A stretch of 64,000 nucleotides of DNA from Tachypleus tridentatus. Lineage: Eukaryota; Arthropoda; Merostomata; Xiphosura; Limulidae. The DNA lies in assembly GCF_004210375.1 (NCBI RefSeq), contig NC_134832.1, forward strand, positions 153,261,592 through 153,325,591, given 5' to 3'. Every line of letters starts with the position of its first letter. Position 1 is the stretch's first letter. Made by a program: the position numbers and the translations under genes. Of the stretch, positions 31,338-61,500 are shown in pieces. The notes below the pieces were generated by a model that saw only the letters and a program-made list of their open reading frames with translations, made no database searches and had not been told where the DNA came from.

Positions 31338-31351
31338 ATTTATTTTCAATC

Positions 31352-31593
31352 ATGCCTACTGATTCCCCAGTAACTTCGGAGTCAGACGATATTCCTGCTG
31401 AACCTACAAAATTAAATCCAATAGAATCATTTCTACATCTGCTTTCTGGGCAAGAAAAGGAACCCAATGTGATTACAATGGACCATTGTTATGCTAAGTC
31501 ATGGAATGCATACCCAGGTGCTGGACATGCAAGACCTGCCAAACTGCTCTTCATGAAAGATGTGCCTCGCCTTCCATTAGTAGATCACACAAG
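31352..31593 (+). CDS. KANSL3: KANSL3 coding exon 1
   Basis: The exon is entered through TTTGCAG at 31331-31337; its first 14 bases are taken as 5' UTR because the ATG at 31352 starts a sequence of the expected length before MDHCYAKSW. No in-frame stop lies between 31338 and the ATG, so an upstream coding start is not excluded. It ends CACACAAG|GTAAGG within a codon (AG|T). The last 23 bases are the seed of the 57-bp array that follows. Confidence 0.88.
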
Positions 31594-34500
31594 GTAAGGT
31601 AACTAGCACTATACACAATATATTGTTCTTCCATTAGTAGATCACACAAGGTAAGGTAACTAGCACTATACACAATATATTGTTCTTCCATTAGTAGATC
31701 ACACAAGGTAAGGTAACTAGCACTATACACAATATATTGTTCTTCCATTAGTAGATCACACAAGGTAAGGTAACTAGCACTATACACAATATATTGTTCT
31801 TCCATTAGTAGATCACACAAGGTAAGGTAACTAGCACTATACACAATATATTGTTCTTCCATTAGTAGATCACACAAGGTAAGGTAACTAGCACTATACA
31901 CAATATATTGTTCTTCCATTAGTAGATCACACAAGGTAAGGTAACTAGCACTATACACAATATATTGTTCTTCCATTAGTAGATCACACAAGGTAAGGTA
32001 ACTAGCACTATACACAATATATTGTTCTTCCATTAGTAGATCACACAAGGTAAGGTAACTAGCACTATACACAATATATTGTTCTTCCATTAGTAGATCA
32101 CACAAGGTAAGGTAACTAGCACTATACACAATATATTGTTCTTCCATTAGTAGATCACACAAGGTAAGGTAACTAGCACTATACACAATATATTGTTCTT
32201 CCATTAGTAGATCACACAAGGTAAGGTAACTAGCACTATACACAATATATTGTTCTTCCATTAGTAGATCACACAAGGGTAGGTAACTAGCACTATACAC
32301 AATATATTGTTCTTCCATTAGTAGATCACACAAGGTAAGGTAACTAGCACTATACACAATATATTGTTCTTCCATTAGTAGATCACACAAGGTAAGGTAA
32401 CTAGCACTATACACAATATATTGTTCTTCCATTAGTAGATCACACAAGGTAAGGTAACTAGCACTATACACAATATATTGTTCTTCCATTAGTAGATCAC
32501 ACAAGGTAAGGTAACTAGCACTATACACAATATATTGTTCTTCTATTAGTAGATCACACAAGGTAAGGTAACTAGTATAATACACAATATATTGTTCTTC
32601 CTTTAGTAGATCACACAAGGTAAGGTAATTAGTATAATACACAATATATTGTTCTTCCTTTAGTAGATCACACAAGGTAAGGTAACTAGTATAATACACA
32701 ATATATTGTTCTTCATTTAGTAGATCACACAAGGTAAGGTAACTAGTATAATACAAAATATATTGTTCTTCCTTTAGTAGATCACACAAGGTAAGGTAAT
32801 TAGTATAATACACAATATATTGTTCTTCCTTTAGTAGATCACACAAGGCAAGGTAACTAGTATAATACACAATATATTGTTCTTCCTCTAGTAGATCACA
32901 CAAGGTAAGGTAACTAGTATAATACACAATATATTGTTCTTCCTCTAGTAGATCACACAAGGTAAGGTAACTAGCACTATACACAATATATTGTTCTTCC
33001 TTTAGTAGATCACACAAGGTAAGGTAACTAGTATAATACACAATATATTGTTCTTCCTTTAGTAGATCACACAAGGTAAGGTAACTAGTATAATACACAA
33101 TATATTGGTCTTTCTCTAGTAGATCACACAAGGTAAGGTAACTAGCACTATACACAATATGTTGTTCATCCTTTAGTAGATCACACAAGGTAAGGTAACT
33201 AGCACTATACACAATATATTGTTCTTCCATTAGTAGATCACACAAGGTAAGGTAACTAGCACTATACACAATATATTGTTCTTCCATTAGTAGATCACAC
33301 AAGGTAAGGTAACTAGTATAATACACAATATATTGTTCTTCCTTTAGTAGATCACACAAGGTAAGGTAACTAGTATAATACACAATATATTGTTCTTCCT
33401 TTAGTAGATCACACAAGGTAAGGTAACTAGCACTATACACAATATATTGTTCTTCCTTTAGTAGATCGCACAAGGTAAGGTAACTAGCACTATACACAAT
33501 ATATTGTTCTTCCTTTAGTAGATCACACAAGGTAAGGTAACTAGCACTATACACAATATATTGTTCTTCCTTCAGTAGATCACACAAGGTAAGGTAACTA
33601 GTATAATACACAATATATTGTTCTTCCTTTAGTAGATCACACAAGGTAAGGTAACTAGTATAATACACAATATATTGTTCTTCCTTTAGTAGATCACACA
33701 AGGTAAGGTAACTAGCACTATACACAATATATTGTTCTTCCTTTAGTAGATCACACAAGGTAAGGTAACTAGCACTATACACAATATATTGTTCTTCCTT
33801 TAGTAGATCACACAAGGTAAGGTAACTAGTATAATACACAATATATTGTTCTTCCTTTAGTAGATCACACAAGGTAAGGTAACTAGTATAATACACAATA
33901 TATTGTTCTTCCTTTAGTAGATCACACAAGGTAAGATAACTAGTATAATACACAGTAGAGTGTTTTTTATTTACTAGATCCCACAAGTTAAGGTATCTAG
34001 TACTTGCACAATATATTGTTTTTTCTTTCTTTAGTAGATTGCACAAGGTAAGGTAACTAGTGTAATATACAACAGATTGTGTATTATACAATCTCAACGG
34101 GTGTTGTGAACATTGTATCTGATACTGGTGTTTGGGTATAGTGCTCACGAAACCCTGGCATTACTGCTGCAGTATCCTTATTTGGCATTGTAGTTCATCT
34201 CCTCACAGGGCTCCATGGTGGATGGGCACCTTAATATTCATTTTTTATTATGGATCCTCCAATTACAAATCTTAATAGAAGAGTGAAAAACCAGTCTGTA
34301 AGTAAACGATCACTTATTGAAAATTCTGAGCAGCAATCCTCACCATCTTTACCACCTGTTGTACATCATTTTTTTATACTACATTTTCTTTCAGACAAAC
34401 CTTTATGGCAAATGTCTCCCTTTTTCATTCAGAAGGGACTAGAAGGACTTGCTGGTTTTCCAAAGTCACTAAAGAAGCTTCGATCTGGTGACATATTGGT

Positions 34501-37500
34501 GGAAACATTCACACCTGAACACAGTGAACTCCTCTTGCATTCAAAGAAAATTGGGGATATACCTATTGAGGTTACACCTCCTGCTACTTTGAATTCATCA
34601 TGAGGAGTTATTGTTGAGAGGGATTTGAAGAACATCCCAGAGTCGGAGATTCTCACTGGTTTCTTCACCCAAGTAGTTTCTGCAGTGAGGCGTGTATCCA
34701 CTGCCAAAGATGGAATTATGGTGCCAACCAGTGTCCTCATTCTCACATTTACGTCACCACATCAGCCTTTCTCCATCAAGGCAGGTTATCTGAATTACAG
34801 AGTGCAGCCATACATTCCAAACCCCCTCATATGTTTCCAGTGTCAGTGGTTTGGTCACTCGAAGACGTCATGTCGAGGTTCTTTGCCGTGTGCTTGTTGC
34901 AGTGGCAAAGACCATGATGCCTACGAGTGTAAATCAGACCCTCATTGCATCAATTGCAATGGCTCTCATCTGTCCTACTTTCGTTCTTGCCCTTGATGGT
35001 TGGAAGAGAAAGAGATGTAGCGTTTGAAAAGATTGAAAATATTACTTACCCTGAGGCTCGAAAATTGCTGTCCACCACCTTATCTCAGAACGTATGCTGC
35101 TACACTTCATTCCAGAACTGTAGTGGGAGTGTAGACAGATCTCCCTGTACCTCCAAAGGAATTGTTCTCCAAACAGATGAAAAGTCTCTTAACCTCAGTG
35201 GTTAAAAAAGTTGATGAATCAACTTCAACACCTATTTCTGTCCTTTACATACATTTCCCAGATTCGTATCCTGTGGTTCCAGGTACAGACAATTCCTTGG
35301 ATAATTTTTTTCTCCCACCCCAAGATGCAAAACAATCATTCTTTTATGTCTTCAGTCACTGGACTCCCAACAGCAAAGACCTGCTCAATCGATCCAGGGC
35401 AATATCCATGGAGGTCTACAGACGTCCCTCAAATAAGGACAGTTAGGAAAAAAAGACGTGGTTGTAAACAGAAGGGTTCTCTAATCAATATGCCTGCACG
35501 TAAATAAAAGTGGCCACTCTGATACAATGGAACTGTCGAGGTTTATGTTCTAATCTGCATGACATCAAAGCACTGATTGCTTACTACCATCCTGTATGTC
35601 TTTCTTTACAGGAAACATTTCTGTAATCTGCCAATACAGTCACCTTTAGACAGTTTTCTTTGTACAGAAATGACAGGCTGTGTGATGGATGAGTGTCACT
35701 GTTGGCTGTTTAATATGTGCCCATCCTGTCTTTGCTACTTGTCACACCCTTGGAGCCTGAAGCCATTCGTGTCTCCTTGGGTCATGTCATCACTGTTTGT
35801 TTTCTTTACCTGTCCCCTGGAAAGACATGATGAATCAGGCCTTGATGCTCTCATTGAACAATTGGCATCTCTCTTTTTCATCCTAGGGTACTTTAATGGA
35901 CATCATCTCTCTGGTGAAGTGCTGATATTGATAGAAGGGATTGCTCTGTAGAGCGTAAGCTCTCTGATCACAACCTTTCTCTTTTCAATACTGGTTCTTC
36001 TACTTATTTTCATGCACCTAGTCAGTCCTTCACTGCTATTGATCTCTCAGTTTGCTACTCTTCATTATTCTCCCATTTTTCATGGAGGGTTGACAATAAT
36101 CCACGAGGCAGTGATAATTTTCCTATAATTTTGAGAGAGACTGGCTGTGGTCCATGCCACCCGACCCACGTGCCCTGGTGGAAGCTGGATAAGTCAAACT
36201 GGCCCTCTTTCGCTGCTCTCACAGAACTTGATCCTGCTATCGTGTGCAAGCCATCAAAAGATGACTGTGTGACAGCAGCAACTGACTGTATTATACAAGC
36301 AGCTGCTCAATGTGTTACTAAAACCTCAACATGTTTTCCACTATATCCTTGTCCATGGTGGAATCCTGCCTGCCACATGGTATGGAAGCCTCAAAAGCTG
36401 GCCTGAGATACTTTCCTAGGTATCCCACACTCTCGAACTGCATCTCTTTCCAGTGGGCCTGTGCACGTGCTCGGTGGGTAAGACGTCAAAGCCAGAATGA
36501 ATCTTGGATTAATTTCAGAACTGGCATATTTTCTAATCAGTGATGTCGAGAAAACCCACTTGTAGAGAAATATATATGTAAAAATGGCTTGTTTGGGTTG
36601 AGAAATTTTGTTACGTAGAGGAGTGAACAACGTTTAGACCTTCTTTGGTCATCGTCAGGTTCACAAAGAAAGAGAGAGGTAACTGACCTGTAGCTGACCA
36701 CATGTTTGAAAGGGGTTGTGTAACTGAGTGTTGGAATGTAGAGGGTGGGCTTAGATATTTGAATATATAATTTTATATTATTATTTATTATATTATTTTG
36801 TAATATAGATTTTAAGGTGTTCCTTTGTATTGGTTTATTTCAAATGTTTTTATTTCTAAGGTTGGAATGTACCTATTGCGAAGTTAAGTAAATGTATCTC
36901 GTCTGTGTTTAATTTTCGGTCAGATCTGTTAATTATGAGGTAAGTCAACTGTTTTTCTTGGTGTCTTTTCTGTTGTTTGCATCTTAGTTTTTCTAGTATA
37001 CGGCATCCCCAAACCTCATAAACCAGATTGTCCATTACGACCAATAATGTCCACATATGAATCATTTAATTACAATCTTGGTAAATACATAGCATGGGCA
37101 TTCTCCAGATATGTAACATCAGCCAGCTCATTCATCAAAGACTCTTTTAATTTCAAGTATAATCTAAATCATCTTAATCATAAAGCCGTAATGGCCAGTT
37201 TTGATGTTATATCCCTCTTTACAGAAGTTCCAACCACTGAAGCCTGCAAGATAGCCTTAGAACTCTATATCCGAGACCCTAACCCAATTATAGACATTCC
37301 CAGCAACCAATTAGCAACCCTCATAGAATTCACCACGATAAAGACAAACTTCATGTTCAACAACCACAACTATATACAAACAAATGGCCAAAGCATGGGC
37401 AACCCAGTATCACCAGTTTTAGCCAATATTTTTATGACACAAGTTGAAACGCAAGCAATTAACACAGCATTACATCCACCATTACACTGGTACAGATATG

Positions 37501-40500
37501 TAGACGACATGATTGCGGGATTCAGATCTACAGAACACACACTTAATTTTCTCAATCACGTTAACATCCCAACATCAACTTCACAGGTGAACAAGAAGGA
37601 AGCAATCAAATATCATTTCTTAACCTCAAAATTACAAGAACCGATACACAATTTAAAACAGAAATCCACAGAAAAATCACCCATACTGGACTATACATTC
37701 CTTGGGACTCAGCACATGAAACAAAACAAAAACTCAACGTACTAAGAAACCAAATAAATACACCCATAAAACTATGCTCACTAGATAAAATTAACAATGA
37801 ATTAGACAAAATAAAACAATACTTCATTAACATCAATAAGTTTCCTCCACAAACTGTAGAAAACATTATACACACACACCTAGACATTGAGCAAAATCAA
37901 CCAACAAAAGTAAATATATCTCACGAATCAAAAAATCACGAAACCACATACTGCTGCATACCATATATTCCTGACATCAGCAGACAAATAACCAAAAGTT
38001 GGCAAAAACTAGTAACAAAATATGACATTCCAGTTAATACCAAATTTATTCAAAAACCAGGCACAAAACTGAGGTCTATACTATGTAAAAACTACACTGA
38101 CAAACATCACACCAACATTATTTATGAAATACAATGTGTTTCCTGCCATGATTTCTATGTTGGAGAAACAAGTAGAAAAATGGAAACCAGATTTAAAGAA
38201 CATAAAAAGCCACCTTCACACGTTTTCGAACACTGCAAGTCAAATAAACACAACATAACCGTAGAAAACACTCAAATACTAAATAAAGAAACAAACAAAC
38301 AAACGCAATATTAAAGAAGCCTTACTTATACAACAACTTAAGCCCAGAATAAATCAGTACAAAGGAACACCTTTGTAACTATATAAAAAAATATAATAAA
38401 ATAATAACATAAAATTATATATTCAAACATCTAAGCCCATCCATATAAATAGGAATGGAAGAATAGTTCAAAATATGTTCAGCAAATAATACAGTATTTC
38501 CAATCAGGAGTGTCTGCTTTTCTCAGTTGACTTAAAGATAGGCCACATGTGGGGACTGTAAGAAGCCATGGTGGGATGGGCTGACCAGTGGATACAGTAA
38601 TATTATCCAAGGACAGACTAAATTCATCGAACTGCACCTGAATACAAAGGCCAAAAGGAGGTGACTGTGTGGGCTCTGCCATGGTTTGTTGTGCTTTGGT
38701 TGTTGCATGCAGAATCCCCTCTACAGTTTGTGTTCACTGCTGAACTGTATGTTATTTCTCTTGTCCTGGATCACATAGAAGCTAAGCAGTATTCAAACTG
38801 CACTACTTATACTGATTTGCTTAGTTCTTTACTGGCCCTGGAATTGTTTCACGTTAGTTCTCATCCTGTTTTTGCCAATATTCAAAACTGACTGGCCCAT
38901 TTCTCTTTCACATGTACTTCTATCCAGTTTTTTTGGATGCCTGGCCATGTTGGTATTCATGGGAACGAGCTTGCCAATACTGCAGCTAAGTCTATCTCTT
39001 CTGGCACTATCACCACTATGCCTTTCCCATACATGGATTATGATTGTATATTCAAGGTGCGGCTCCATGCCAATTGGCAGTCAACTTGGAGGGAGCAATG
39101 TGAAAACAAGCTTTTCCAAATAAAACCCTCTATTGGACTTTGGCTGTCTTGCTTTTGGAAAGAGAAAGTTGTTCTAACTAGGCTACGCATGGGTCACAGT
39201 TGTTTAACTCATTTTTATGTTTTATCTGGGACTGATGCCCCAATGTGTTGTTTATGTAAAACTTGGGTCACAATAAGCCACATTTTAATGTCTTACTGTC
39301 ATTACAATTCTCAACGACGGCACCATTTTAAACATGTTTTGTCCCAAGGTTTATCCATAATGTTAGACAGTGTTTTTGGCAGTGGGGGCACTGTACACCT
39401 AAAAAATGTTTTTAGTTTTTTAAAGGCCATTAATTCTTTTAATGCTATTTAAGGTTTTTAAGTTATGAGTTGACCTGTTTTTAATGTGATTCCCTTTTAA
39501 GAATTAAAGAACATCTAGTTCAATTTGAAATTAAAAAATGGCTTTAGTGTTAAATAACTTGAAACCAGGACTTGAAAGGCCAACTTCAGGTGTCTAATGC
39601 TCATGTTTGAACTACCCGTTAGTCATCCTGGAGAGTTATAATAATTCAAACGTTGCTACAAGTCTTTTAAAACTTGTATTACTTTACTTTCTGAAAATGG
39701 CCATATGGTCAAATGACTTGAAACCAGGACTGGAATGGTCAACTTCAGGTAACTAATGCTGATTTTTGAACTTACCCATTAGTCATCCTGGCGAATTATG
39801 AAAATTACAATTATGCCACAGAAAGTTCTTTACAACTTGTATTACTGTAGTTTTTCTCTTACTGCTGTAGATATAAAAATTGGATTTAATGCTATTTATG
39901 TTTTTAATTTAAAATTTAAACTTTGTTTTGTATTACCTTAATATCCTTTTATAAATTTTAATAATTTTACTTTAATTTTAACTTTTTACCAGATGTTTGG
40001 CACAGATAGCCTAGCTGCTTTGTGCCAACCAATCAATCACACAAGATAAGGTGACTAGTATAATACACAATAGATTGTTCTTCCTTTAGTAAATCACTCA
40101 AGGTAAGATAAATAGTAATACACAATATATTGTTCATCCTTTAGTCGATCACACAAGGTAAGGTAACTAGTACAACACACGATAGATTGTTCTTCCTTTA
40201 ATAGATTGCTCAAGGTAAGATAACTAGTATAATACACAATATATTGTTTATCCTTTAGTAGGTCACAGAAGGTGAGGTAACTAGTACAACACAGGATAGA
40301 TTGTTCTTCCTTTAATAGATTACTCAAGGTAAGGTAACTAGTATAATATGATAGATTGTTCACCCATTAGTGGATCACACATGGTAAGGTGACTAGTATA
40401 GTACACAATAGATTGTTCTTCCTTTAGTAGATTGTAGAAGGGAATGTAACTAGTATAATAGATGTAACCCTGTAATTTCAATAGTGACATATGGAACTTT

Positions 40501-43500: not shown

Positions 43501-46500
43501 TGTAAACATGGTTAAAAATAAATGAGTAAATACTTGGCTATCATGTAAAAGACATGTGGTTAAAATGTAAGCAGTTGTGTTTTGTTATACACTGTTTTTG
43601 TTTTCTGATGGAGTTTATTTGACCTGTTGGTGTTTTGTGTTAGTTAAATTTGTTTATTTTAAGTTTGATAAACACCTTTTTAATGCTGTTTCTTTTAGTT
43701 TTTCTAATTACTATTTTTTAGAATTATCAAAGAAAATATATTAGATTTTTAATTGTACTTTCTTTTTACTTTTGTTAGTGAGAAAAATGGCAAAGTTGAT
43801 ATTGAAACAGTACCATCAAAACTTGTCATGCCCATCGACAGTAATAAAGTTCGAGGGCTAATGACGGAGTGTGAACGCCATGTTCGTTTGATGCGGAAGC
43901 AAGATGTGCCAGATGACTGGGAAGATCACATAAACAAGTTAGTTCTGATAATTGTATGGGAAGATCACATAAACAAGTTAGTTAGTTTGTGTGGGAAAGT
44001 CACACAAACAAGTTAGTTTTGATAATTGTGTGGGAAGATCACACAAACAAGTTAGTTTTGATAATTGTGTGGGAAGATCACACAAACAAGTTAGTTTTGA
44101 TAATTGTGTGGGAAGATCACACAAACAAGTTAGTTTTGATAATTGTATGGCAAAATCACATAAACAAGTTAGTTTTGATAATTGTGTGGGAAAGTGACAC
44201 AAACAAGTTGGTTTTGATAATTGTGTGGGAAAGTGACACAAACAAGTTGGTTTTGATAATTGTGTGGGAAAGTGACACAAACAAGTTGGTTTTGATAATT
44301 GTGTGGGAAAGTGACACAAACAAGTTGGTTTTGATAATTGTGTGGGAAAGTGACACAAACAAGTTGGTTTTGATAATTGTGTAGGAAAGTGACACAAACA
44401 AGTTGGTTTTGATAATTGTGTAGGAAAGTGACACAAACAAGTTGGTTTTGATAATTGTGTGGGAAAGTGACACAAACAAGTTGGTTTTGATAATTGTGTG
44501 GGAAAGTGACACAAACAAGTTGGTTTTGATAATTGTGTGGGAAAGTGACACAAACAAGTTGGTTTTGATAATTGTGTGGGAAAGTGACACAAACAAGTTG
44601 GTTTTGATAATTGTGTGGGAAAGTGACACAAACAAGTTGGTTTTGATAATTGTGTGGGAAAGTGACACAAACAAGTTGGTTTTGATTATTGTGTGGGAAG
44701 ATCACACAAACAAGTTGGTTTTGATAATTGTGTGGGAAAGTGACACAAACAAGTTGGTTTTGATAATTGTGTAGGAAAGTGACACAAACAAGTTGGTTTT
44801 GATAATTGTGTGGGAAAGTGACACAAACAAGTTGGTTTTGATAATTGTGTGGGAAAGTGACACAAACAAGTTGGTTTTGATAATTGTGTGGGAAAGTGAC
44901 ACAAACAAGTTGGTTTTGATAATTGTGTGGGAAAGTGACACAAACAAGTTGGTTTTGATAATTGTGTGGGAAAGTGACACAAACAAGTTGGTTTTGATAA
45001 TTGTGTGGGAAAGTGACACAAACAAGTTGGTTTTGATAATTGTGTGGGAAGATCAAAGTGACACAAACAAGTTGGTTTTGATTATTGTGTGGGAAAGTGA
45101 CACAAACAAGTTGGTTTTGATAATTGTGTAGGAAAGTGACACAAACAAGTTGGTTTTGATAATTGTGTGGGAAAGTGACACAAACAAGTTGGTTTTGATA
45201 ATTGTGTGGGGGAAAGTGACACAAACAAGTTGGTTTTGATAATTGTGTAGGAAAGTGACACAAACAAGTTGGTTTTGATAATTGTGTAGGAAAGTGACAC
45301 AAACAAGTTGGTTTTGATAATTGTGTGGGAAAGTGACACAAACAAGTTGATTTTGATAATTGTGTGGGAAAGTGACACAAACAAGTTGGTTTTGATACTT
45401 GTGTGGGAAAGTGACACAAACAAGTTGGTTTTGATACTTGTGTGGGAAAGTGACACAAACAACTTGGTTTTGATAATTGTGTGGGAAAGTGACACAAACA
45501 AGTTGGTTTTGATAATTGTGTGGGAAAGTGACACAAACAAGTTGGTTTTGATAATTGTGTGGGAAAGTGACACAAACAAGTTGGTTTTGATAATTGTGTG
45601 GGAAAGTGGCACAAACAAGTTGGTTTTGATACTTGTGTGGGAAAGTGACACAAACAAGTTGGTTTTGATAATTGTGTGGGAAAGTGACACAAACAAGTTG
45701 GTTTTGATACTTGTGTGGGAAAGTGACACAAACAAGTTGGTTTTGATAATTGTGTGGGAAAGTGACACAAACAAGTTGGTTTTGATAATTGTGTGGGAAA
45801 GTGACACAAACAAGTTGGTTTTGATAATTGTGTGGGAAAGTGGCACAAACAAGTTGGTTTTGATAATTGTGTGGGAAAGTGACTCAAACAAGTTGGTTTT
45901 GATTATTGTGTGGGAAGATCACACAAACAAGTTGGTTTTGATTATTGTGTGGGAAAGTGACACAAACAATTTGGTTTTGATAATTGTGTGGGAAAGTGAC
46001 ACAAACAAGTTGGTTTTGATAATTGTGTGGGAAAGTGACACAAACAAGTTGGTTTTGATAATTGTGTGGGAAAGTGACACAAACAAGTTGGTTTTGATAA
46101 TTGTGTGGGAAAGTGACACAAACAAGTTGGTTTTGATAATTGTGTGGGAAAGTGACACAAACAAGTTGGTTTTGATAATTGTGTGGGAAAGTGACACAAA
46201 CAAGTTGGTTTTGATAATTGTGTGGGAAAGTGACACAAACAAGTTGGTTTTGATAATTGTGTGGGAAAGTGACACAAACAAGTTGGTTTTGATAATTGTG
46301 TGGGAAAGTGACACAAACAAGTTGGTTTTGATAATTGTGTGGGAAAGTGACACAAACAAGCTGGTTTTGATAATTGTGTGGGAAAGTGACTCAAACAAGT
46401 TGGTTTTGATAATTGTGTGGGAAAGTGACACAAACAATTTGGTTTTGATAATTGTGTGGGAAAGTGACACAAACAATTTGGTTTTGATAATTGTGTGGGA

Positions 46501-49500
46501 AAGTGACACAAACAAGTTGGTTTTGATAATTGTGTGGGAAAGTGACACAAACAAGTTGGTTTTGATAATTGTGTGGGAAAGTGACACAAACAAGTTGGTT
46601 TTGATAATTGTGTGGGAAAGTGACACAAACAAGTTGGTTTTGATAATTGTGTGGGAAAGTGACACAAACAATTTGGTTTTGATAATTGTGTGGGAAAGTG
46701 ACACAAACAATTTGGTTTTGATAATTGTGTGGGAAAGTGACACAAACAAGTTGGTTTTGATAATTGTGTGGGAAAGTGACACAAACAAGTTGGTTTTGAT
46801 AATTGTGTGGGAAAGTGACACAAACAAGTTGGTTTTGATAATTGTGTGGGAAAGTGACACAAACAAGTTGGTTTTGATAATTGTGTGGGAAAGTGACACA
46901 AACAAGTTGGTTTTGATAATTGTGTGGGAAAGTGACACAAACAAGTTGGTTTTGATAATTGTGTGGGAAAGTGACACAAACAAGTTGGTTTTGATAATTG
47001 TGTAACATACCAATGAAAGACAGTTATCCTTTTCACAAGAATTGACTTATGGTTAAAAGGTATTGTGCTTTTTGTTATTGTGTGTAGTGTTTCAGTATTG
47101 TAATAAATATCTTCATATTTAAAGAAATAGTAATTTTTTAATACTAGTTTTCACTCACAAAAGAGTAGCAATTGACAGTAACTTGGTTCAGCATATTTCA
47201 GTAGAAATGTAACTCTTTTACAGGTTCAAAAGTTCTGTTTAATTCTCTGTGTTTTGCTTCAGTCATTTCATTACGTATCCATGAAACTATACATGCTATA
47301 ACTTGTAAAATACATGTTTCTTCACAAAACTTGGTATGTTTTGTTTACTGTAAATATATGGAGCTATAGTCTTTACTATTCTAAGTGCAAAGTGAGATTT
47401 AAATATACTTTTTGTTATTTTGTAGTTTTCAAATTTCATACAACTTTAGAAATGAATATAAAAATGTTTTTCACTTTGTATTTTGTGTTATGTTTTTACA
47501 CCCTTGATTGATCTTGTAACTACAAAAGAAAAGCCATTCTCCTTTTTGTCTTCCTAAATTGACTACCTGTTGTTACAGACAGTTTACACTTTTTATTATG
47601 ACAGCTAAATATAATGCAAATCTCCTGGTTATTGAGATTTATTGTTTACTGTCAGATTAACACTAAAATAAACTATTACTGTAGTTAGCTTTGTTTAAAC
47701 ACAGTTAATAGAACATTTTGTTAAATTACTTCATTCTCCATGAGTGAAATGTGGTTGTGCTGTCAGGTATCTTGTTGTTATTCATTTTTTCTTATTTAAC
47801 TTTAAAAGTAAGTAACTTGTACATTTTATTTACATATAGGTCTTGTACCTTTTTTGTTTTCTTGTTGTCTCAAAGTTAACCATATTTGTTGATAGTACTT
47901 TACTCAATTTTTATTTATTTTAAATATGCAAATTAAGTAACAAAATATCAAAAACAATGAAGAATTGTCCTAAAACTGTTACAGTTTACCTGGTTAATGT
48001 AATATCCATGATAGCAAAGTGTGTGATTGACACACTGTAACTTAAAACTGATTGTGCAAATGAGCTGGCCTTGAAAGAAAATACATATTGATCTATTCTT
48101 TCTATAGATAATTGAGTAGCAAATGTCACAGAGAATTAGATATATACAGCATGTGCTTTGAGGGGAGCATGTAAGTTTCAATTTATGGCTAAAGAAAGAA
48201 GAAGGGATGCTATAAATGTTTATTTTGACTTGGGGATGTCTATTGTACAAGTGTGTAAGTGCTTGTAGACTTGGAAAATAAAATAAGGAAAAAATAAAGT
48301 GTTTAATTTGTAGAGAAGAAGTGTCACATGATACAAAAAGTGAATATTGAAAACATATTTAATATTTCCTTTTCAAACTAAAAACCACCACCCATTGGTA
48401 AGTCTACAGATTTACATTGCTAATCTCAGGGGTTTGATTCCTCTTGGTGGACTCAGCAGATAGTCCGATGTGGCTTTACAATAAGAAAACACACACATAA
48501 ACTAAGAAATTCAAACTCATAATAAAAGTTTAATTATAATGTATGTTTTGTTGCAAAGTTTATTGACACACATTGACAGTGACGCACTGTAATTAAATCT
48601 TGAATGTAATTCTGAAAAGTCTGTGTTATGTGCCCCAAGGCCTGGTTGTATTTGTAGTTTGCCTGAACTTTTAACCCTTGTTAGACTTTTCAGTGTTTTA
48701 AACATGTTAGTTATTGGGTTTTAAGTACTGGAAACACCTGTCTATTGTTTTTATCAGGATGAAACTTAGCATGATTCCTAACTAAACTCTGACCAAAAAA
48801 TGTTTCAAGCCCAGAATTCTTATTTTGTGTTATGGTTTGATCAGATTTTTAACTGGAAGAAACATTAGCAGCTTCACCATATCTTTAGTAATTATATAAT
48901 TTATTCCATTAAAGTTAGGTTTGGATATTTTTAGTTATGCAGGTTGATCTGAATATTTACATTTGTCAAGATTAGTTATAAGACAGTTTCCTTATAGAGT
49001 TTGAAACAACCTGAGTTTGTGCTATGTCGTAAATGTCCCTCATTATGTGATATAACATTATTATTATGTGGCTGTAGCATAGATATTTATTTATTTAGTA
49101 AAATAAAAATGTATTTTTTGAGTTCAAGTTGATGTAGTTATAAAACAAATTGTGTGTTTCAAAGATTGTGGTGTTATATTTTATGTACTCAAATATAGTT
49201 GATTTTTTGTTCTTCATATACTTAAGTAATTATTTATTGTTTTTGTAATCCCATTACTAGTGGCTGTAACTGTGGCTATAACATAAAATATGTCTGAACA
49301 AAAATTGTGTTCATAACATAACATTTAAGGTAACTTTAAGTTATAAATTGGAATTATTTAAAAAACAGTAAAAATATGTCACACTTTTGTTTCTTTTCTT
49401 TTGTTTATAAATTTTTAGATGAGTGAACTGTTAACAATACTTGTGTTTTATGCAGTTAATTTATCGGGAACTAATGATTGTTTCATACAGTTAATGTATC

Positions 49501-52500
49501 AGGAACTAATGATTGTTTCATACAGTTAATGTATCAGGAACTAATGATTGTTTCATACAGTTAATGTATCAGGAACTAATGATTGTTTCATGCAGTTAAT
49601 GTATCAGGAACTAATGATTGTTTCATGCAGTTAATGTATCAGGAACTAATGATTGTTTCATGCAGTTAATGTATCAGGAACTAATGATTGTTTCATGCAG
49701 TTAATGTATCAGGAACTAATGATTGTTTCATACAGTTAATGTATCAGGAACTAATGATTGTTTCATACAGTTAATATATCAGGAACTAATGATTGTTTCA
49801 TACAGTTAATATATCAGGAACTAATGATTGTTTCATACAGTTAATATATCAGGAACTAATGATTGTTTCATACAGTTAATATATCAGGAACTAATGATTG
49901 TTTTATACAATTAATATATCAGGAACTAATGATTGTTTTATACAATTAATATATCAGGAACTAATGATTGTTTTATACAATTAATATATCAGGAACTAAT
50001 GATTGTTTTATACAATTAATATATCAGGAACTAATGATTGTTTTATACAATTAATATATCAGGAACTAATGATTGTTTCATACAGTTAATGTATCAGGAA
50101 CTAATGATTGTTTCATACAGTTAATGTATCAGGAACTAATGATTGTTTCATACAGTTAATGTATCAGGAACTAATGATTGTTTCATACAGTTAATGTATC
50201 AGGAACTAATGATTGTTTCATACGGTTAATGTATCAGGAACTAATGATTGTTTCATACGGTTAATGTATCAGGAACTAATGATTGTTTAATACGGTTAAT
50301 TTATCAGGAACTAATGATTGTTTAATACGGTTAATTTATCAGGAACTAATGATTGTTTAATACGGTTAATTTATCAGGAACTAATGATTGTTTAATACGG
50401 TTAATATATCAGGAACTAATGATTGTTTCATACGGTTAACTTATCAGGAACTAATGATTGTTTCATACGGTTAACTTATCAGGAACTAATGATTGTTTCA
50501 TGCGGTTAACTTATCAGGAACTAATGATTGTTTCATGCGGTTAACTTATCAGGAACTAATGATTGTTTCATGTGGTTAACTTATCAGGAGCTAATGATTG
50601 TTTCATGCGGTTAACTTATCAGGAGCTAATGATTGTTTCATACGGTTAATATATCAGGAACTAATGATTCTATCTACATTTATTTTCACAGGTAGGAAAG
50701 TCTTTGTCAGTGTTCACAGTAATAGTAGTCCTTTGTGTTTATTTTGTGCTGTTATTGGTTAAATGATTGAATGGTTTATACGCTAATACTTGTATCTTAC
50801 AAGTTTGTAATAGAGTCAGTGATGAATAGAAAAGTTTGACTTGTATATTTATTTTCATACTTATTAGTTCACTTTTAACAGAAGTCAGAAACTTTCCGTT
50901 ACAGGAAAGGGTGGTCAGTTGCTCAGAATAGGTTGTTCAATAAAATAGTGAAGATACTGAACACGGACCGTTTAGCTCGTCTTACCTATGAAGGCACTAA
51001 TAATGAACCGGTCATGAGACGGCTTGCTGTTGACAAGACAGCACAAAGAATTCGCCAGGTTTTCTCATCCTTCTCTTGGGTATGTGTTTTCTGGCTATTA
51101 TTCATCATAACTAATAGATATCTTCAAGCTGTTAGTAATAGCCCTTAGTACTAGCATTAGCCACTGCAGGCAATGTAAAGATATTGAACACCCATTGGTA
51201 TATGGTAATAAACAAATGTAATGGATACTACAGTTGAATAGTGTAGTACATTTATTAATGGAGTTTTTTTCACCTTCATCTCTATGAATCACACAGTTTA
51301 AGTTTGCCTATAATGTTATATGTAGAATTATAACACGAGAAACACAATAACCTTTCTCAACTATTTTATGTACAAGTTGATCACTGATGTTTTAAGTAAT
51401 TGTAAATGCAATCATTTTAAATAATTTATTGTTTAAAAGGTATTTTGTTAAATGGTTGGGTAACAGAAAAAAAGTCTGAGAAATGTAAGAATGCAAGCTA
51501 TTGTATGTGACTAAGGGTAGATTGGAGATTCGTATGAAATTCTTACCTTGGAATATATCATACCCTTGATGTACCACAGATAAAACTTCTTGTAATTATA
51601 AAGTTTACTGTTTATTAATATAAATTGAATCTATGTTTTATTATTGGATGTGAAAACCAGAGAGAAAAACTGATTAAGGCTTAATGTTCTATCATTATAG
51701 GTGTGTTTAACTTTGAGAAGGTTTTAGAATGAAAACAAGTAATAAAAAATGAATATGATGCAGGTTTGGTAATGTCATAAAGTACAGAAACATGACGGGA
51801 CAAAACTATACAAAATTCACTACGTAAGTAGCCAACTCTTTCTAAAAATAACATTTATTTACAACTAAATATTGGATTACTTTTGATTGGCATGAATTCA
51901 GATTTAAATAGAAGCAATTAAACTGAATAATGTCATTAATCTTAAGAGTGGCTTATTCCAATAAGCTTGTAATGTTGATTTAGTGGCTTCTTATTTTGGG
52001 ACTTTTTATAGTTTTATGTATTCATCCCAACCTTGTTTCTGTACAAGGCCTTTTATAAAAAGGTATGACTGGATCATACTAATTTTTATTACATGTTTCC
52101 ATTCTCTTTCTTTTAAACAATACCAACAAATATTTTATAATGAACGGCAGTTGCTAAAGGCAGCAGTTTTAGCCTGGCATAATGATTTATCTTAACAGAC
52201 ATCATTTGTTGAACTGAGTGAAACACAATATTGCTTCTGTACTCCACAAGTTAAAATACAACACTTTGGTGTATAAATTATAACAACAACTTCCACCATT
52301 GGAGAGCTAGCCCTTCTGACACCAGAGTTGGAACATTTGGCTGTTACACTACTCATCAGTTCTTTAGTGATGTTTTTTTGGCTAAACCGAAGGTCTTTAT
52401 GTAGTGACAGTGTGAGAACAAAATGGCTGAAGCATGTTATGCATAGCTCATAAATGTCTCTTGGATGGTTATAAGAAGAGATTTGAAACTATTATGGATA

Positions 52501-55500
52501 ATATGCATCAGCCATTTTTTTTTCTCATTCCATTCCTGCATATTAAGCACTACCCTATACAATGACTGATGACCTCTGATGGCCATTGTATACCTTGCTA
52601 CATAAATTGTATGTTTGAAAGGAGTGTTTAACCTTTATCGTGGTTTGTTAATGCCTGAAAAAAGTGCTTGATAATTGTTTTAGAATATTAGTTGAGTTCT
52701 AAAATATTGTTTAAAGAACATTTTATTGTGTTTTATGTATGTACTTTTTGTGTCATTTAAAGTTGCAAAAATAAAACCTTAAAAATTAAAGTACAGTAAG
52801 ACCAGTGACAAATACTTTTATCTGTTGTTGGACAATACCATATAAAACACTTAAAAACAACCAGAATCTGAGAATATTGGTTTGTAAGTTATAAAGTTTT
52901 GTCAAAGGTTGGAAGCATGTTGGGCCCAAGTAAAGATAACACTGCTCTGGGGTGTATTTAAATTTTTTTTTCTTTATTTTGATTATGCATTTCAAGATAT
53001 TTACGTCTCATGTAAATTCTGCAGAAGAATAAATTTTATGCAATTGAAAATTAGAGGTGTACCAATACTGATAGTGTGTTGGACATTTGGTTAATATTAC
53101 TTATTGTAAAATTAGAGTTAAAATTACTTTTTGGTAACAATACTTGTTTATTAAGATGTTATATTGTTTTGCAAGAATTGTGTTTCCATGTTGTTATCAT
53201 TAGTGTAATCACGTGAAATGTGTATTTTTAAACTTCTGGGATGGAAGAAATTACTGTTGAAATTTCTTTATTAAAAAGAAAAGGTGACAGTATTGATATA
53301 AAACCTTGTAAATAATGGAATGAAAATAATAAGTAATTTATTTAAACTTTCAGGATGACAAGCTTCTTCTGTGGCTTTATCAGACAATAGTTGAAAACCT
53401 TCCATTTCCTTACTTGGCAGCTTATTTGGATGTCTTACAAACTTTAAAGTCAAAAGTAAGGTTCTTTAGTTTTATTCAAAATCAGTTTGGTTTGTGTTTG
53501 AAAACTAGTGCAAGTGTTTAGTTTCTACTAGTATTATTGAAGAATCCAAAGATTATCAGTGTAGGAATACGTCGCACAGTGAGGTTAACACGTTGGAAAA
53601 AAACTACCTCGTTAATTGAATCATCACTGAACAGGGAATAGTTTTAATATGAAAAATAATGACACATGGGTATCATAAGGAATTTCATCATAGTAGAAAT
53701 AATTAAGTCTATTTAATTAATATTAAAGTCTATTAACTCTAATTAAAACAATGAAAATTTTCTTTTGAAAAATGAAAACTAAAAGTTTACTGATTAAAGA
53801 AAAATCCATCTAATTTAAGTTGCACCATCTTTTTTTTTTTTTTCCCTCCTGGAGTTCTCAGTAACATTTTCTAAGGCTTGTTGGTCATTAATGCTGCACT
53901 CTACGTCTGGATCATGATTTGTAATTAAGTTTCCACTGCTCTAAACATTTCTTCAAGTTCCTGTAAGGGAAATTCTTTTTCCCACTTTTCACTAGCACCT
54001 TCTTTACTCTGGACTTTCTTCTTCTTCCTCATATGTCCGATCTTGGTCTGAGTTAAGGAACGTATCATTGTTGAGAGCTTGAGAATGTGCGTCAGTGTCC
54101 TCTCGAACATTAGCCACTTCCAAAGACTCGAATCCAAGATTGAGTCCAGTTTTGATGACATCTTCAGAAACATCCCTAATTTTGGACTCAAAGCCACAGG
54201 AATCACTTACGCAATGAGGCAAAACATGCTTTCATACTGCTCTCATGTTACTCTTGCTTTGAACCATGCTTCGTTGATGTTGTGATTTTTTCCAGAATTC
54301 AGGCAAAGATAGTGCAGCTTCTCTAGTTGTGGCCTTCATTGCTTGAGAAAAAGTTTGCCTCTAATAATAAGCTTTAAATGTCACAATGACACCTTGATCT
54401 GTTGGTTGCAGTAGAGATCTATCAGGTGGAAGAAAATGAATTTTGACATTTTTTATTAAAGTCGCAAAGTACCATTGGATGGCCTGGTGCATTATCTCAT
54501 AACAACAAAGATTTAAAGCTCAATTTGTTTTCGTTGCAGTAATGTTCAACTGCAGGACAAAAATAACTCTTTAACCAGTCTTTAAACAAAGTTTTCGTGA
54601 CTCATGCTTTGTTATTTGTAAGCCAAATAAGTCATCTTTGCATGGCTGCTAAGTGCTTGAGGGGTTTGCTCATAATACACAAGCATGGGTTTTAATTTTA
54701 AATTGTCAGATGTATTTCCACCTAACAAAAGTGTCAAACAATCTTTTGATGCCTTATAACCTGGCTGAGTGTTTTCATTTTCTGATAGAAAAGTTCTAGA
54801 AGGCATTTTTTTCCAAAATAAACCCGTTTCATCAACATTATAAATTTGGTTATCTTTGTACCCACCTTTTTCAATAATTTCTATAAATTCATTAGGAAAT
54901 TTTTCATCAGCATCTTTGTCTGCACTTGAGTTTTTGCCTACAATGCGAATATTATGAATCAATGCTTTTTGTATTGATTATTTTACAGTTCTTACAGATG
55001 ATTCATTTATTCCTTTGTATCATGCGATTTGGCAAACGAAGCACCTTCTTCATGGCACTTGATGATTTCAAGTTTCTCTTTTAGTGTAAACCATTTACAT
55101 TTCTTTGATTCTGTATCATCACACTTTCTTTTTTCACTCATAATAAAGGGATCTGTAAAAATATCAAGAAGGATACACCCATGCTCAAGAAGAAACAGCT
55201 GACCTTAGATTTGTACTTTACAGTATATAAATGTGCATGAGCTTGCAGAAAGATCTAGAATAAGTGAGTGACACAAATTCATGGAGATCATTTCAGAAAA
55301 ATGTCAGCCATAATAAAAAGGACCCAGGGACATGTACATATATAAATACAGCTGTATTGTAGTGAATCATTCGGTACTAATTGAATCATCAGTTGGAAAT
55401 TATAAACCACACTATAGTGAATTCTGTATTGATTGAAGCTGTACTGTGCGAGGTATTGCTGTACTAAGTAGTTATGTAAGTCGAGAGTGTAGATATAATT

Positions 55501-58500
55501 GATTAAATTATTAAGATTGATGTTAACCTTTTATGTTGATAAAAGTAGTGTACATATATTAACTACATGGAAATAACTTAATCAGTTGGTATGTGTCTCC
55601 TGCAGCTCGTACATTTAAAAAAAATAAGATGGGTGTGCACTATCTTCATAGCTTTTTCAACCACTACATTATTCTAACATGGTATCAATTTTCCTGTTTT
55701 CATTTATATTCTGTTTTTTAAAGTAATTATTGATTACCCGTGATTTTTTCATTATACGTTTTTTGAATGTAACCAGTTTGACAAGAAACATTGCTTTATC
55801 TGAAAAAGGTAATTTGGATGAATTGCTAATGTTGACTAAATATTACCATATCATTACCATTATTGTTTTTCAAATGTGCAGTAATCCTACATTGATTTCT
55901 GTAAATAAAATAATTTAATAATGAAAAGAAGTTTTACAGTTATTTGAGGGTATTAATACTTATATTTAAAACCTATTAAGACTATAATTAGAAACAATTA
56001 AGTAGCCAGTTAGCCAATTCATTTACGTACAATGTTTAAATAGAATTCACATCAAAAGGATATTCCTTAAAGATTTGAGTCATCAGGATGTTTTGAAATT
56101 TACTGTTTCTATTCACTAAAGAGTAAACTCACGTAATTAAAATCTCAAATTTACAGCTAGTGCAAATCAATAAAAAATTTATGTATCAGAAAGTTAAAAA
56201 CAATGTAATTAGAGACAAAAACTTGTATCAAAGTAAGCTACTTGTATTCAATAATGACAAAACCTTCTCCAAATATTTTACATTTCTTACTGTATTAAAC
56301 TTATTACAAAGTTTTTTGTTCCCCATTCAACCCATTTCCAAATTGTATAATCTTACTTTATTACAAATCATCTAATGTCTTCTTACATAAGAAAATTTCT
56401 GCAGTTTTCAAACAGATGTGATTTTAATGCATGTATTCCAGTTGGTGCAAACCTTTTCCATCCATCTTTTTGCCATAGGGTTGCTCTTTCTCTTTCATAT
56501 GTATGACTGGCTTCTTCTAACTCATTCCACACAGAAGTCAGCCTGTCATAATCTCAGTTCCTTCTCAAAACTGCTCAGATAGGTTGGTTGATCTTTTTGG
56601 TGAAGTCCTTCTTTTGTTCTACCTGGTTCCTTGTTTATTTGGGTGTTTTCTTATGTATCCATCTCATTTGGACCTAACTTTATCTTGTTTAACTGTTCTA
56701 AGGCACAGGCTGTTTTGAATCACCTGCTTGTTCACTTGCTTTCTACTCATGAGGTTCTGTAACTCTTGGGGGTGTGGTCTTTGCAGACTCCACTCGTACC
56801 CCTGGACCAGGTTCATAGGAGGTCCCTACCATGGGTCCTTCACGACCAATGGCTCTCTGTTTGGGTATCTTTGGACTCTCCCATTGAACTTTCTTTCTAT
56901 CTTGTGATGGTTGGTCACAGCTTATTTTTTGGTGGGTGTTTTGCTTTTTTCTTCACAGCTAGATTTAAATTTGGTCACAGATCACAGATGCATTCCTTTG
57001 GGACTCGGGTGCATGGTTTGACCACTGTGTGGCTTAAGGTCATTAGTCCATGGGGACACGTTATCTTTCATTCAACTTCCTCAATGTTTTTATTGTTCAT
57101 TTGGCTTTCAATCGTTTCTTCCTTTCTCCAGGGATTCCACTTTTAAGAATTCCCTCGGGTGTATACAAATGAGATCCCTGTGTTTCTCTTCTTGTTCTAA
57201 AAGTTTTGAAGCTTTTAGTAAACATCACAAATCCATGAATATATGGTGTTAGTGTTGACTGCTCAAAGTGCAAAGTGATTTTCATGTTCAAATTAAAAAT
57301 ACTTTTCTTTATCAAAAAATTTCAAGTTTAATTTTCATAGGTTTTAAAATCTCCCATTTTTCTATTATTTTCTGTGTCCTATCTATATACAGGGTCAATT
57401 ACTATGACTGACCTTACTTCCACCACAAAAATGTAAGGATGGAAAAATACAAAATGAAATAAGTAGTATTGTTCTATTGTTGTTATTACTGACTACAAAG
57501 TATTGTTCTATTGTTGTTATTACTGACTACAAAGTATTGTTCTATTGTTGTTATTACTGACTACAAAGTATTGTTCTATTGTTGTTATTACTGACTACAA
57601 AGTATTGTTCTATTGTTGTTATTACTGACTACAAAGTATTGTTTTATTGTTGTTATTACTGACTACAAAGTATCAGTTTCTTTTCATGACAGTGGTTGCA
57701 ACAACACTTGTTGAAGGTAATAAAAATGCACTAGTAGGAGGGGCTACTCTGGTAGGTTTGTTAAATATTTTGATGTCTCAGCAAATAAAAAAGTGGGAGG
57801 TTTTTATTTTACATTTTAGGTTGTAAATATGACACAAACAAATAAATATATTTTAGGTTGTAAATATGACACAAACAAATAAATATATTTTAGGTTGTAA
57901 ATATGACACAAACAAATAAATATATTTTAGGTTGTAAAGATAACACAAACAAATAGAATATATTTTAGGTTGTAAATATGACACAAACAAATAGAATATA
58001 TTTTAGGTTGTAAATATGACACAAACAAATAAATATATTTTAGGTTGTAAATATGACACAAACAAATAAATATATTTTAGGTTGTAAATATGACACAAAC
58101 AAATAAATATATTTTAGGTTGTAAATATGACACAAACAAATAAATATATTTTAGGTTGTAAATATGACACAAACAAACAAATATATTTTAGGTTGTAAAT
58201 ATAACACAAACAAATGAATATATTTTAGGTTGTAAATATGACAAACAAATAGAATATATTTTAGGTTGTAAATATGACACAAACAAATAGAATATATTTT
58301 AGGTTGTAAATATGACACAAACAAATAGAATATATTTTAGGTTGTAAATATGACACAAACAAATAGAATATATTTTAGGTTGTAAATATGACACAAACAA
58401 ATAGAATATATTTTAGGTTGTAAATATGACACAAACAAATAGAATATATTTTAGGTTGTAAATATGACACAAACAAATAGAATATATTTGCATTTTTTTC

Positions 58501-61500
58501 AAATATTTTCTTTTAATGAATTAAAGCATATGTAATATTAAACTTTAAATTATGTTGTGATGCCAATTGTATTAACATACAGTGATGATAAAGTATTGGT
58601 AATTATCTCTTGAAAATAATTAAAACTTCATGACCTGCACCCTTTGACCTGTTCTCTGAGAGAGAATTAACAGAAACATACATAATAGTAATACTTCAAT
58701 TACTTACAAGTTAGGATAGTCACTAACAGTAAATAATTGGAAAGCCTAACTGTGATTAGTTGATTGTTTTTACAATTGAAACTTTAGATGTAATTTCAAT
58801 TTATCAGTTATTGGAATAATTTAAAATAAGTGATTATAATAACTAATTTTGATTAATTGATAATTTTCACGACTTTAGTTGCTGCTCAGTGGTGTTCAGT
58901 GAAATTCTTAGTGGTAGCTCCTAATAACATACAACTTGAGTACATACAAACTCCACAAATATGAAAATTAATTTGACTAATTACTGTTGTGGTCCTTCTG
59001 TATTTTTCATAAAAGATGAGAAATTTAAACCATGTTTTATTATCAATGCTGTAACGCATAAAAATACAAAATTACTTAGTATGTGGACTGCATTGTGTTT
59101 AATAGTTTAAACCATGTCTGTACATCCTTGATGATAAGAAACCCACTTGAAATAAAAATGTATCTTGGAATGGCTGGTATGGGCATTAGCACTTTTACTG
59201 ATAAAGCAGAGAACAACATTTTGACCTTCGTAGGTCATCTGCAGGTTGATGTCAATAAGGAACGTCTATACGTGTGTACTACATAAAAACAAATACAACT
59301 GTTAATTTAGGGATAAATTTATTTCAATTTGTTCTATGTTGGATTAGTTACAGAATAACATAAGCTTTTTTAACTTGTTTTATTTAACAATAAGACATAC
59401 TTGTTTGTTTCTAACTTGTTTTATTTAAGAAAAAGACATTCCTGTTTGTTTCTAACTTGTTTTATTTAACAAAAAGACATTCCTGTTTGTTTCTAACTTG
59501 TTTTATTTAACAATGAGACATACCTGTTTGTTTCTAACTTGTTTTATTTAACAATAAGACATTCCTGTTTGTTTTTAACTTGTTTTATTTAATACAAAGA
59601 CATTCCTGTTTGAATTGTGTAATTTTGATTGAAAATGGCCAAAATTTAGAAGCTCGACAAAAATGAGATACGTGTAACATTTTGACAGCACAAGTGTTAA
59701 TTTTTTGTCCTGTAATCTTTAAAATCAGTCTTATAAGTCTGTGAAGAGTGAATCTGAAACTGGTGTTTGGTGACAATACTTACCTGGAGATGCATATTTA
59801 AATTTACACATTTTAATTTTATCAAACTTGTTATAATTATAAACTGGGTTTATTCCAGTTGTGAGACTGTCATCTAATTTTAGCAGGTTCCAATTATGGG
59901 ATCCTCATTTTCAAACTCATGACATGTCTGCAGCTTATAATTTATTTTAATATGTTAATTGTATTGTTAAGTAAACTTGAGTGTGTTTTCTTTTTAAATG
60001 CATGATGTTTTTTAGGACTGATAAATCAGTAAGTAAGTTGTTAGTAATCTTTAGAAACATATAAAGTATAATAGTAATAATAAATAAAAATAGTACATTT
60101 TTGGAATATGATAACTTTATAATACTTTTAAACATGACTCATACTGCAGCTGGTTATGTTTGAAATGATATCTATTGTTTTACCAATTTTTAAAAGTTTT
60201 ACATAAGTAAAACATACATCTAAGTCAAATGGTTAGAACTTTCACATGTTGCAAACAGCATCGTTTGGTGTGGTCCTTTTTAACAGGTTCCAAGTTTGAT
60301 GGATAGGTTTATGAATCATATCCAGTCTAGTCCTGTGTGCCAGTCAGGACCAACAAGTAGTGACGCTCTTAACCTACTGTTAAAAAGACCGTGGGACCCT
60401 GTATTACACATGCTGAACTTGTACAAACCTGTAAGTATTATGATGTTCTGTGGTTTGAATAAATATACAGTTTTCTAGAGTTAATAGAAAGTTCTTATAC
60501 TAGTTTCTAGTAATGTGAATAAATTATTTTGAACAGCAAAATAGTCAGTTGTTTGAGGTAATTATATGACTTTTTCTTAAGTAATCATTACCCCTTATTG
60601 TCACAATAGTAATAACCTAAAAAATATAACCTGGATATTGTATTGCTTCACTATATCCTCCTCTACAACCAGATATAAACAACAAATACATGATGAATAT
60701 TTGTAAGTAACATGTTATCATATTGTAATTCTTCATCTTATATTGAAACTTTATAAGTTAATAGTAGAGAATCAGTACAGGGCCACAATTCGTTTTCTGA
60801 AACCTTTCGGGCCAATTATGTTTCGGAATTTAGAATTTTTCGGATTTTAGAACAAACGTGTCACCCAAGTAGGGTCCAGAGCAGCACCCCATAATCATGT
60901 ACAGTGGTAGTTCTGACATCGTTTTCTTCAATAAGACACCGCACAGACACTGCACGATTAAGCTTCTACAATAACTCCACTTTCTGTGTTATTGATAATG
61001 TCAGATGCTTCCTTTTCTCACTGTTGCCTATTGGGGTATCTGCAGCTCACAGTAAAATTAAAAACAGTCACCAAATAAAAAGCAAGAAAAAATATCAGTA
61101 GACACGTGTGACCAGCTGAGACACAGCTGGTACACGCTGCCATGTCACTCAGGTGTGATGTGGGTCTGGAGTTGGGTCATCTGTTTTTCTGACATTCCAG
61201 ACTCCACGAAAAAAACTTTAGTTTTTGGAGCTTTTCGAATTTCGGAACTTCGGATATGAGATTGTGGACCTATACTGTGAATCGGTATGTGTTACCTTTG
61301 ATAGATTTCATGGTCCTGAACAAATCCAGTCATTTTACGATAAGTTGGGTTTTATATTTTTAGTCTAAATGTTTTGTTACTTATAGTGTTGATGTTAGTC
61401 ATTTCATTATAAAGACATTTGAAAGACTATTGGTAGATTGCAAGCATTGCATATTAAATTTGGATCATAATTTTATAGAGAGACTCAAATCTGTTGACAA

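Follow-up and report, generated by a model that had tools for sequence, protein, structure and literature searches.

How is a splice donor chosen when the end of an exon, donor included, recurs dozens of times in the intron behind it? A 64-kb window of the Tachypleus tridentatus genome (the window being the whole stretch of DNA analysed, in whose own coordinates positions are given) raises this question at the gene KANSL3, where about 40 identical donors compete, no second copy of the gene was found and only the first donor is predicted to give the full-length protein, which makes the locus a natural test of donor choice. Its scientific value lies in a clash with what has been described elsewhere: where two 5' splice sites are comparable, splicing prefers the intron-proximal one by a mechanism that is not known according to the relevant part of PMC6002489, and this preference predicts use of the last donor, contrary to the first-donor use that we propose.

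The KANSL3 gene and its 57-bp array

The attribution of the gene to KANSL3 in a first-pass annotation was borne out. Six exons with GT-AG borders (Table 1) join into 1041 nt, or 347 codons, with no internal stop, and a Pfam search matches exons 3-5 to the helical domain PF23154 (KANSL3_1st) with an E-value of 3.1e-11, above the curated cut-off; the frame is still open at the sixth exon, the last one found within the window. The first coding exon alone matched no Pfam family, and presumably belongs to KANSL3 given its frame, its position and the human protein. What the same annotation called exon 1 is probably exon 2, since it starts at 31338 behind a good acceptor, which makes an untranslated 5' exon upstream probable. 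The join of exons 2 and 3, DWEDHINK-KGWSVAQ, agrees with what we take to be the human KANSL3 sequence; a longer join with nine more residues scores 45.4 versus 42.4 bits in Pfam, but was not preferred because its donor scores -8.

A second KANSL3 copy was not found in the host genome by protein and first-exon searches: the first coding exon has a single match, and all six matches of the joined protein (E<=0.01) fall inside the window. Hence there is no relative without an array in this genome with which the locus could be compared. A PDB search with the joined exons gave no match. The horseshoe-crab identity of the host is, on sequence evidence, backed by 19 matches to the coagulin (coagulogen) family PF02035 (best E 1.5e-25; none in 14 control genomes), a family that we take to be restricted to horseshoe crabs.

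Table 1. Coordinates of the KANSL3 exons, arrays and associated features in the window.
Feature	Position	Strand	Description
First coding exon	31338..31593	+	ATG at 31352; preceded by acceptor ttttctttgcag; 256 nt; from GT-AG borders and frame
57-bp minisatellite	31571..34060	+	TRF: period 57, 43.6 copies, 96% matches, score 4230
First donor GTAAGG	31594..31599	+	Among donors 1-4 tested, the only one keeping the frame open
Transposon-like DNA splitting the 57-bp array	34061..40035 (ends approximate)	+	About 6 kb
Diverged rest of the 57-bp array	40036..40460	+	7.5 copies, 4 AAGGTAAG sites; DNA matches of 82 and 86%
Second coding exon	43779..43937	+	Donor CAA/GTTAGT; from GT-AG borders and frame
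Second junction array	43918..47003	+	39 bp, about 79 copies; 20 bp of exon end and 19 bp of intron
Third coding exon	50905..51079	+	No array at its end
Fourth coding exon	53354..53455	+	No array at its end
Fifth coding exon	60287..60430	+	No array at its end
Sixth coding exon	62352..62570	+	No array at its end

At the exon-array border the sequence reads ...GTAGATCACACAAG/GTAAGGTAACTAG (the slash marks the splice junction), after which the same 57 bases follow over and over, each unit comprising the last 23 bases of the first coding exon and 34 bases of intron. The earlier description thus stands with respect to the composition of the unit, with a border that is drawn from the frame and the GT-AG signals, to the approximately 44-fold tandem repetition of exon end and donor (43.6 copies by TRF), and to the exon ending at 31593 with GTAAGG starting at 31594. 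The perfect donor that it had assigned to every unit is present in 40 exact copies of AAG/GTAAGG rather than in some 44, the remainder including one GTAAGA. More precisely, the exact AAGGTAAGG occurs 42 times on the plus strand of the window, 40 of them in the array (from 31594 to 34048) and two at 40158 and 40329. Reading 44 units at a spacing of 57 bp gives the exact donor in 39 of them and the variants AAGGGTAGG, AAGGCAAGG, AAGGTAAGA and AAGTTAAGG in four more; the last unit is off register. The core AAGGTAAG is found 47 times on the same strand, with 41 occurrences in the array, four in the remnant at 40 kb and two elsewhere. The recurrence of exact AAGGTAAGG in the array is not due to chance. 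Three of the nine positions of the donor core vary among 42 units, compared with 20 of 57 over the unit. A genome search with 230 bases of the array returned at least 16 matches, all in the array or its 40-kb remnant. In the seven units inspected, a pyrimidine-rich tract (72-89% C/T) ending in TTAG or TTTAG lies 13 bases before the donor, and from tract and donor together tiny exons, or an intron within the units, are conceivable.

The array is split by transposon-like DNA, in which 36939-37742 is an open frame for reverse transcriptase (PF00078, E 1.5e-10); three further frames of this segment put to Pfam had no match, and frames here other than the reverse transcriptase presumably resemble LINE proteins. 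Since the remnant behind the insertion is more diverged, the array appears older than the insertion. Apart from copy 13, the first 17 copies are identical, while copies 18-42 share 49-57 of 57 bases with the exon copy, which suggests that the exon-adjacent block was homogenised after the insertion.

In the frame of the exon the array reads ...VDHTR and then a stop. Joining the first donor to 43779 leaves the frame open through six exons, whereas donors 2, 3 and 4 each lead to a product that ends at 81 residues; because TAA directly follows the first donor in the exon frame, every later donor of the array also gives a stop. The claim that all donors but the first bring a stop therefore holds by direct joining for donors 2-4 and by the position of this TAA for the others. 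On the minus strand an open frame of 869 codons runs across the array (31551-34160), which a gene finder could call; it is probably an artefact, since 57 is divisible by 3 and that strand of the unit is free of stops. The 39-bp array likewise yields long open frames, on both strands.

A second array at the next exon

The second coding exon ends in ...GACTGGGAAGATCACATAAACAA/GTTAGT and runs directly into a 39-bp array, whose start was placed at 43928 by TRF (78.8 copies) and at 43918 by eye, taking 20 exonic bases. Within 400 bp of exons 3-6 the best copies of the exon end match at 13-15 of 26 bases, compared with 26 and 25 for the two exons with arrays. The donor here, CAA/GTTAGT, is weak, scoring 4.4 versus 11.3 for the first donor of the 57-bp array under a matrix built on human frequencies. 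The anchor AACAAGTT[AG]G occurs in 71 copies, of which the first seven read GTTAG, as in the exon, and the other 64 GTTGG. The copies next to the exon are thus the divergent ones, the reverse of the 57-bp array, where the exon-adjacent copies are uniform. The consequences of donor choice differ as well, as donor 2 would keep the frame open and insert 13 residues, while donors 3 to 8, which were tested, lead to stops.

The origin of a minisatellite from an exon-intron junction, as first proposed for the 57-bp array, is supported. For that array, whose exonic part codes for PLVDHTR, we infer that the direction was from exon to array. The same direction is better supported for the 39-bp array, since its exonic part codes for DWEDHIN, which we take to be conserved in human KANSL3.

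Junction arrays elsewhere and their base rate

Other junction arrays were sought with whole-genome patterns of three successive donors, and the figures that follow hold among the matches listed. First, triple AGGTAAG gave 11 array places, all on contig C1 up to 9.93 Mb; the 5' side was read for ten, and at three of these the array starts at an exon end. They are a duplicated pair (L097 and L098) at a start-codon exon, MADDEREEYR, known as an open frame alone, and an array (L099) at the end of a TPR-like exon, whose match to TPR_2 (E 0.0074) falls short of the curated cut-off. The latter exon was called DNAJC7-like, a name that is our assumption, because a DnaJ-domain exon (PF00226, E 4e-12) and a further DnaJ-like frame lie downstream (L101). 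Second, CAGGTAAGT arrays were located at 21 places up to C3:114.66 Mb, which group by sequence into 17 families, and one place per family was read; for L108, L109, L111 and L115 the array start was outside the stretch or was not judged. In the other 13 families, three arrays start at an exon end, one possibly does (L106) and nine do not, including one (L105) whose array lies about 400 bases behind an exon-like end. The first of the three (L113) lies at an NPC1-like exon (TIGR00917, E 3.6e-25), whose match to the family extends to residue 61 of 62 submitted. The second (L107) adjoins a frame open for at least 85 codons that has no family above cut-off and a single weak PDB match (E 0.44), and the third (L116) a short open exon behind an acceptor, with no family. 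Over nine cases measured, L106 included, 6 to 23 bases are shared on the exon side.

Judged from these sequences, junction arrays recur in the genome, with two homology-supported cases outside KANSL3, the NPC1-like and the DNAJC7-like exons, and three further ones at exons known as open frames alone. Together with the array in the next exon and the human precedent discussed below, this makes the locus less singular than it had first seemed.

Recurrence does not, however, imply that exons are targeted, because match counts of donor patterns are close to those of backward controls and the myosin exon-match ends sampled lay outside arrays. Over the whole genome, triple AGGTAAG had 5062+6479 matches versus 7194+2794 for the pattern read backwards, and triple CAGGTAAGT 168+226 versus 141+267; the listed matches of the latter control contained one duplicated array. 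Counting places rather than matches in the first 6.61 Mb of C1 gave 9 for the donor and 4 for the control, which are small numbers. For the base rate at exon ends we took 86 PF00063 myosin matches, dropped the six weakest and examined 60 of the remaining 80, letting match ends stand for exon ends: none of the 60 was covered by a TRF array, and in one case a 62-bp array (L077, C7:10346248-10346608) starts within about 10 bases past the match end, just outside the junction. The 264 kb around the window are dense in arrays, with 42 TRF rows covering 31.4 kb, an array of about 50 kb excluded. A unit donor scoring at least 11 was seen in 4 of these 42 rows (two arrays, two rows each) versus 0.27 expected from non-array DNA and a single row under the reversed matrix, a post hoc comparison that includes the KANSL3 array itself. 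Exon-directed birth of arrays was thus not supported.

With 42 arrays in 264 kb, the chance of an array edge in a given 25-base exon end is about 0.4%; assuming some 200,000 exon ends in the genome, random birth is expected to yield hundreds of exon-end arrays and, in a few genes, two of them. The observations are accounted for by arrays born at random in a genome rich in them, together with selection keeping the real donor.

Donor choice and its possible explanations

Donors borne by a minisatellite have a human precedent in IFI6 (6-16, G1P3), whose repeat unit is presumably about 12 bp. Its minisatellite contains multiple splice donor sites (Turri et al. 1995, NAR 23:1854, as cited in parts of PMC2572611 and PMC4526556), and two downstream units serve as donors, yielding three mRNA species, in the account given by the latter. 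As in IFI6, the KANSL3 minisatellite overlaps the exon-intron border, drawn here from frame and GT-AG signals, and its units carry donors; unlike IFI6, the units are of 57 and 39 bp, the copies number about 44 and 79, there are two arrays in one gene, and later donors of the 57-bp array bring a stop. The section of PMC4974935 on potato RdRp describes intron gain through tandem duplication; tandem duplication within KANSL3 likewise alters the intron structure of the gene, but it has multiplied an existing donor, and no new intron was seen. In exon 1 of oestrogen receptor alpha two comparable 5' splice sites are paired and the intron-proximal one is used (PMC6002489, in the part concerned); donors of equal strength also compete in KANSL3, although there are about 40 rather than two and the first alone is predicted to give full-length protein. 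Literature searches found nothing joining minisatellites with the horseshoe crab genome and nothing on VNTR repeat units as splice donors in alternative splicing; one on minisatellite, splice donor and exon-intron boundary gave a single result, concerning ABO blood type. The main text of the mangrove horseshoe crab genome paper (PMC7210998) does not contain the terms tandem repeat, minisatellite or satellite.

The explanation that we favour, with a probability of about 0.7, is that both arrays were born from junctions, that the first donor is productive through exon definition while later ones are decoys leading to nonsense-mediated decay, and that the arrays are most simply by-products of a minisatellite-dense genome, with no selected regulatory device needed. 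A segment of 57 bp that spans the end of the first coding exon would have been tandemly duplicated and then expanded inside the intron, and a separate 39-bp event at the next exon would have had the same outcome. Copies after the first would act as decoy donors, whereas productive KANSL3 mRNA would come from the first, closing a 256-nt exon defined by the upstream acceptor and exonic enhancers, and selection would purge variants that lose it. Some transcripts may take later donors; these would meet TAA at codon 82, a long way before the later junctions, and would probably be degraded by nonsense-mediated decay. Such arrays would be tolerated because the duplicated DNA lies after the real donor. 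Nevertheless, this explanation is weakened because the intron-proximal preference predicts the last donor, the first donor of the second array is weak, and the alternative join of exons 2 and 3 scores slightly higher in Pfam.

The same preference (PMC6002489, within the part cited) speaks for frequent use of the later donors, such that much KANSL3 pre-mRNA would go to decay and the array would set a low output, possibly by copy number. The 41 GT donors sharing the core AAGGTAAG and the stops given by donors 2-4 fit this possibility; however, no second gene copy was found that could buffer the loss, and for IFI6 three mRNA species, not dozens, are reported in that portion of PMC4526556, so that we hold it to be doubtful.

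Assembly error in the copy number would agree with the identity of 57-bp copies 2-12 to the exon copy, and with a gap of 500 N in the 50-kb array downstream, by which not all long arrays are resolved. We find it very improbable, since the window has no N, later 57-bp copies bear distinct variants, transposon-like DNA splits the array, and the 39-bp array is of the same design. Little more probable is the opposite order of events, in which the array came first and the exon was extended into a pre-existing intronic minisatellite; against it stand the presumed conservation of DWEDHIN in human KANSL3 and the NPC1-like exon, which matches its family almost to its last residue. Lastly, U1 sites can keep transcription from terminating early (telescripting), and the 57-bp array, which packs about 40 strong U1-like sites into the first 2.5 kb of a 12-kb intron, might offer U1 a binding platform close to where the gene starts, its donors acting as U1 sites rather than as splice sites. 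Yet the donor core is without clear extra constraint and the donors of the 39-bp array are weak, which leaves this the least probable of the explanations considered.

Returning to junction-born arrays with a productive first donor, it is tempting to speculate that hundreds of horseshoe-crab genes carry junction arrays with equal donors, that a first-donor rule based on exon definition overrides the intron-proximal preference, and that some later donors, for example in the KANSL3 39-bp array, add in-frame residues. Although we consider this extension unlikely as a whole, it would, if true, make junction minisatellites a source of protein variation as well. The KANSL3 locus offers a concrete path by which minisatellites invade gene structure, and as the further cases in the same genome differ in unit length, donor and frame, RNA could read out the rule of choice.

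Other features were seen around the locus. Within KANSL3, a 35-bp array of 35 copies occupies 49444-50669, in the intron before the third exon, and further intronic arrays lie at 57465, 57813 and 59367. Some 44 kb before the window begins (L026, 5666-6437), a 37-bp unit is repeated about 20 times, and its consensus has a strong donor, GAGGTAAGT; no exon was recognised where this array starts. Downstream, at 127-178 kb in window coordinates (L016-L021), is the array of about 50 kb mentioned above, which has a 33-bp unit and the 500 N in L018. On the plus strand of the window, 4008-5156 is an unbroken frame of 383 codons, whose product matches a BRF2-like cyclin repeat (PF21886, E 2e-23). An array of about 48 bp at G000:C1:1080861-1081633 (L092) has the unit TTCTTGACAG/GTAAGTTG, where a donor follows on an acceptor-like end, and in this we see a presumed likeness to recursive splice sites. 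Finally, GATCACACAA is common to the 57-bp and 39-bp arrays (31583-31592 and 44037-44046), and GACACAAACAA to the 39-bp array and that at 57813-58489; such shared words perhaps reflect chance or a shared instability motif.
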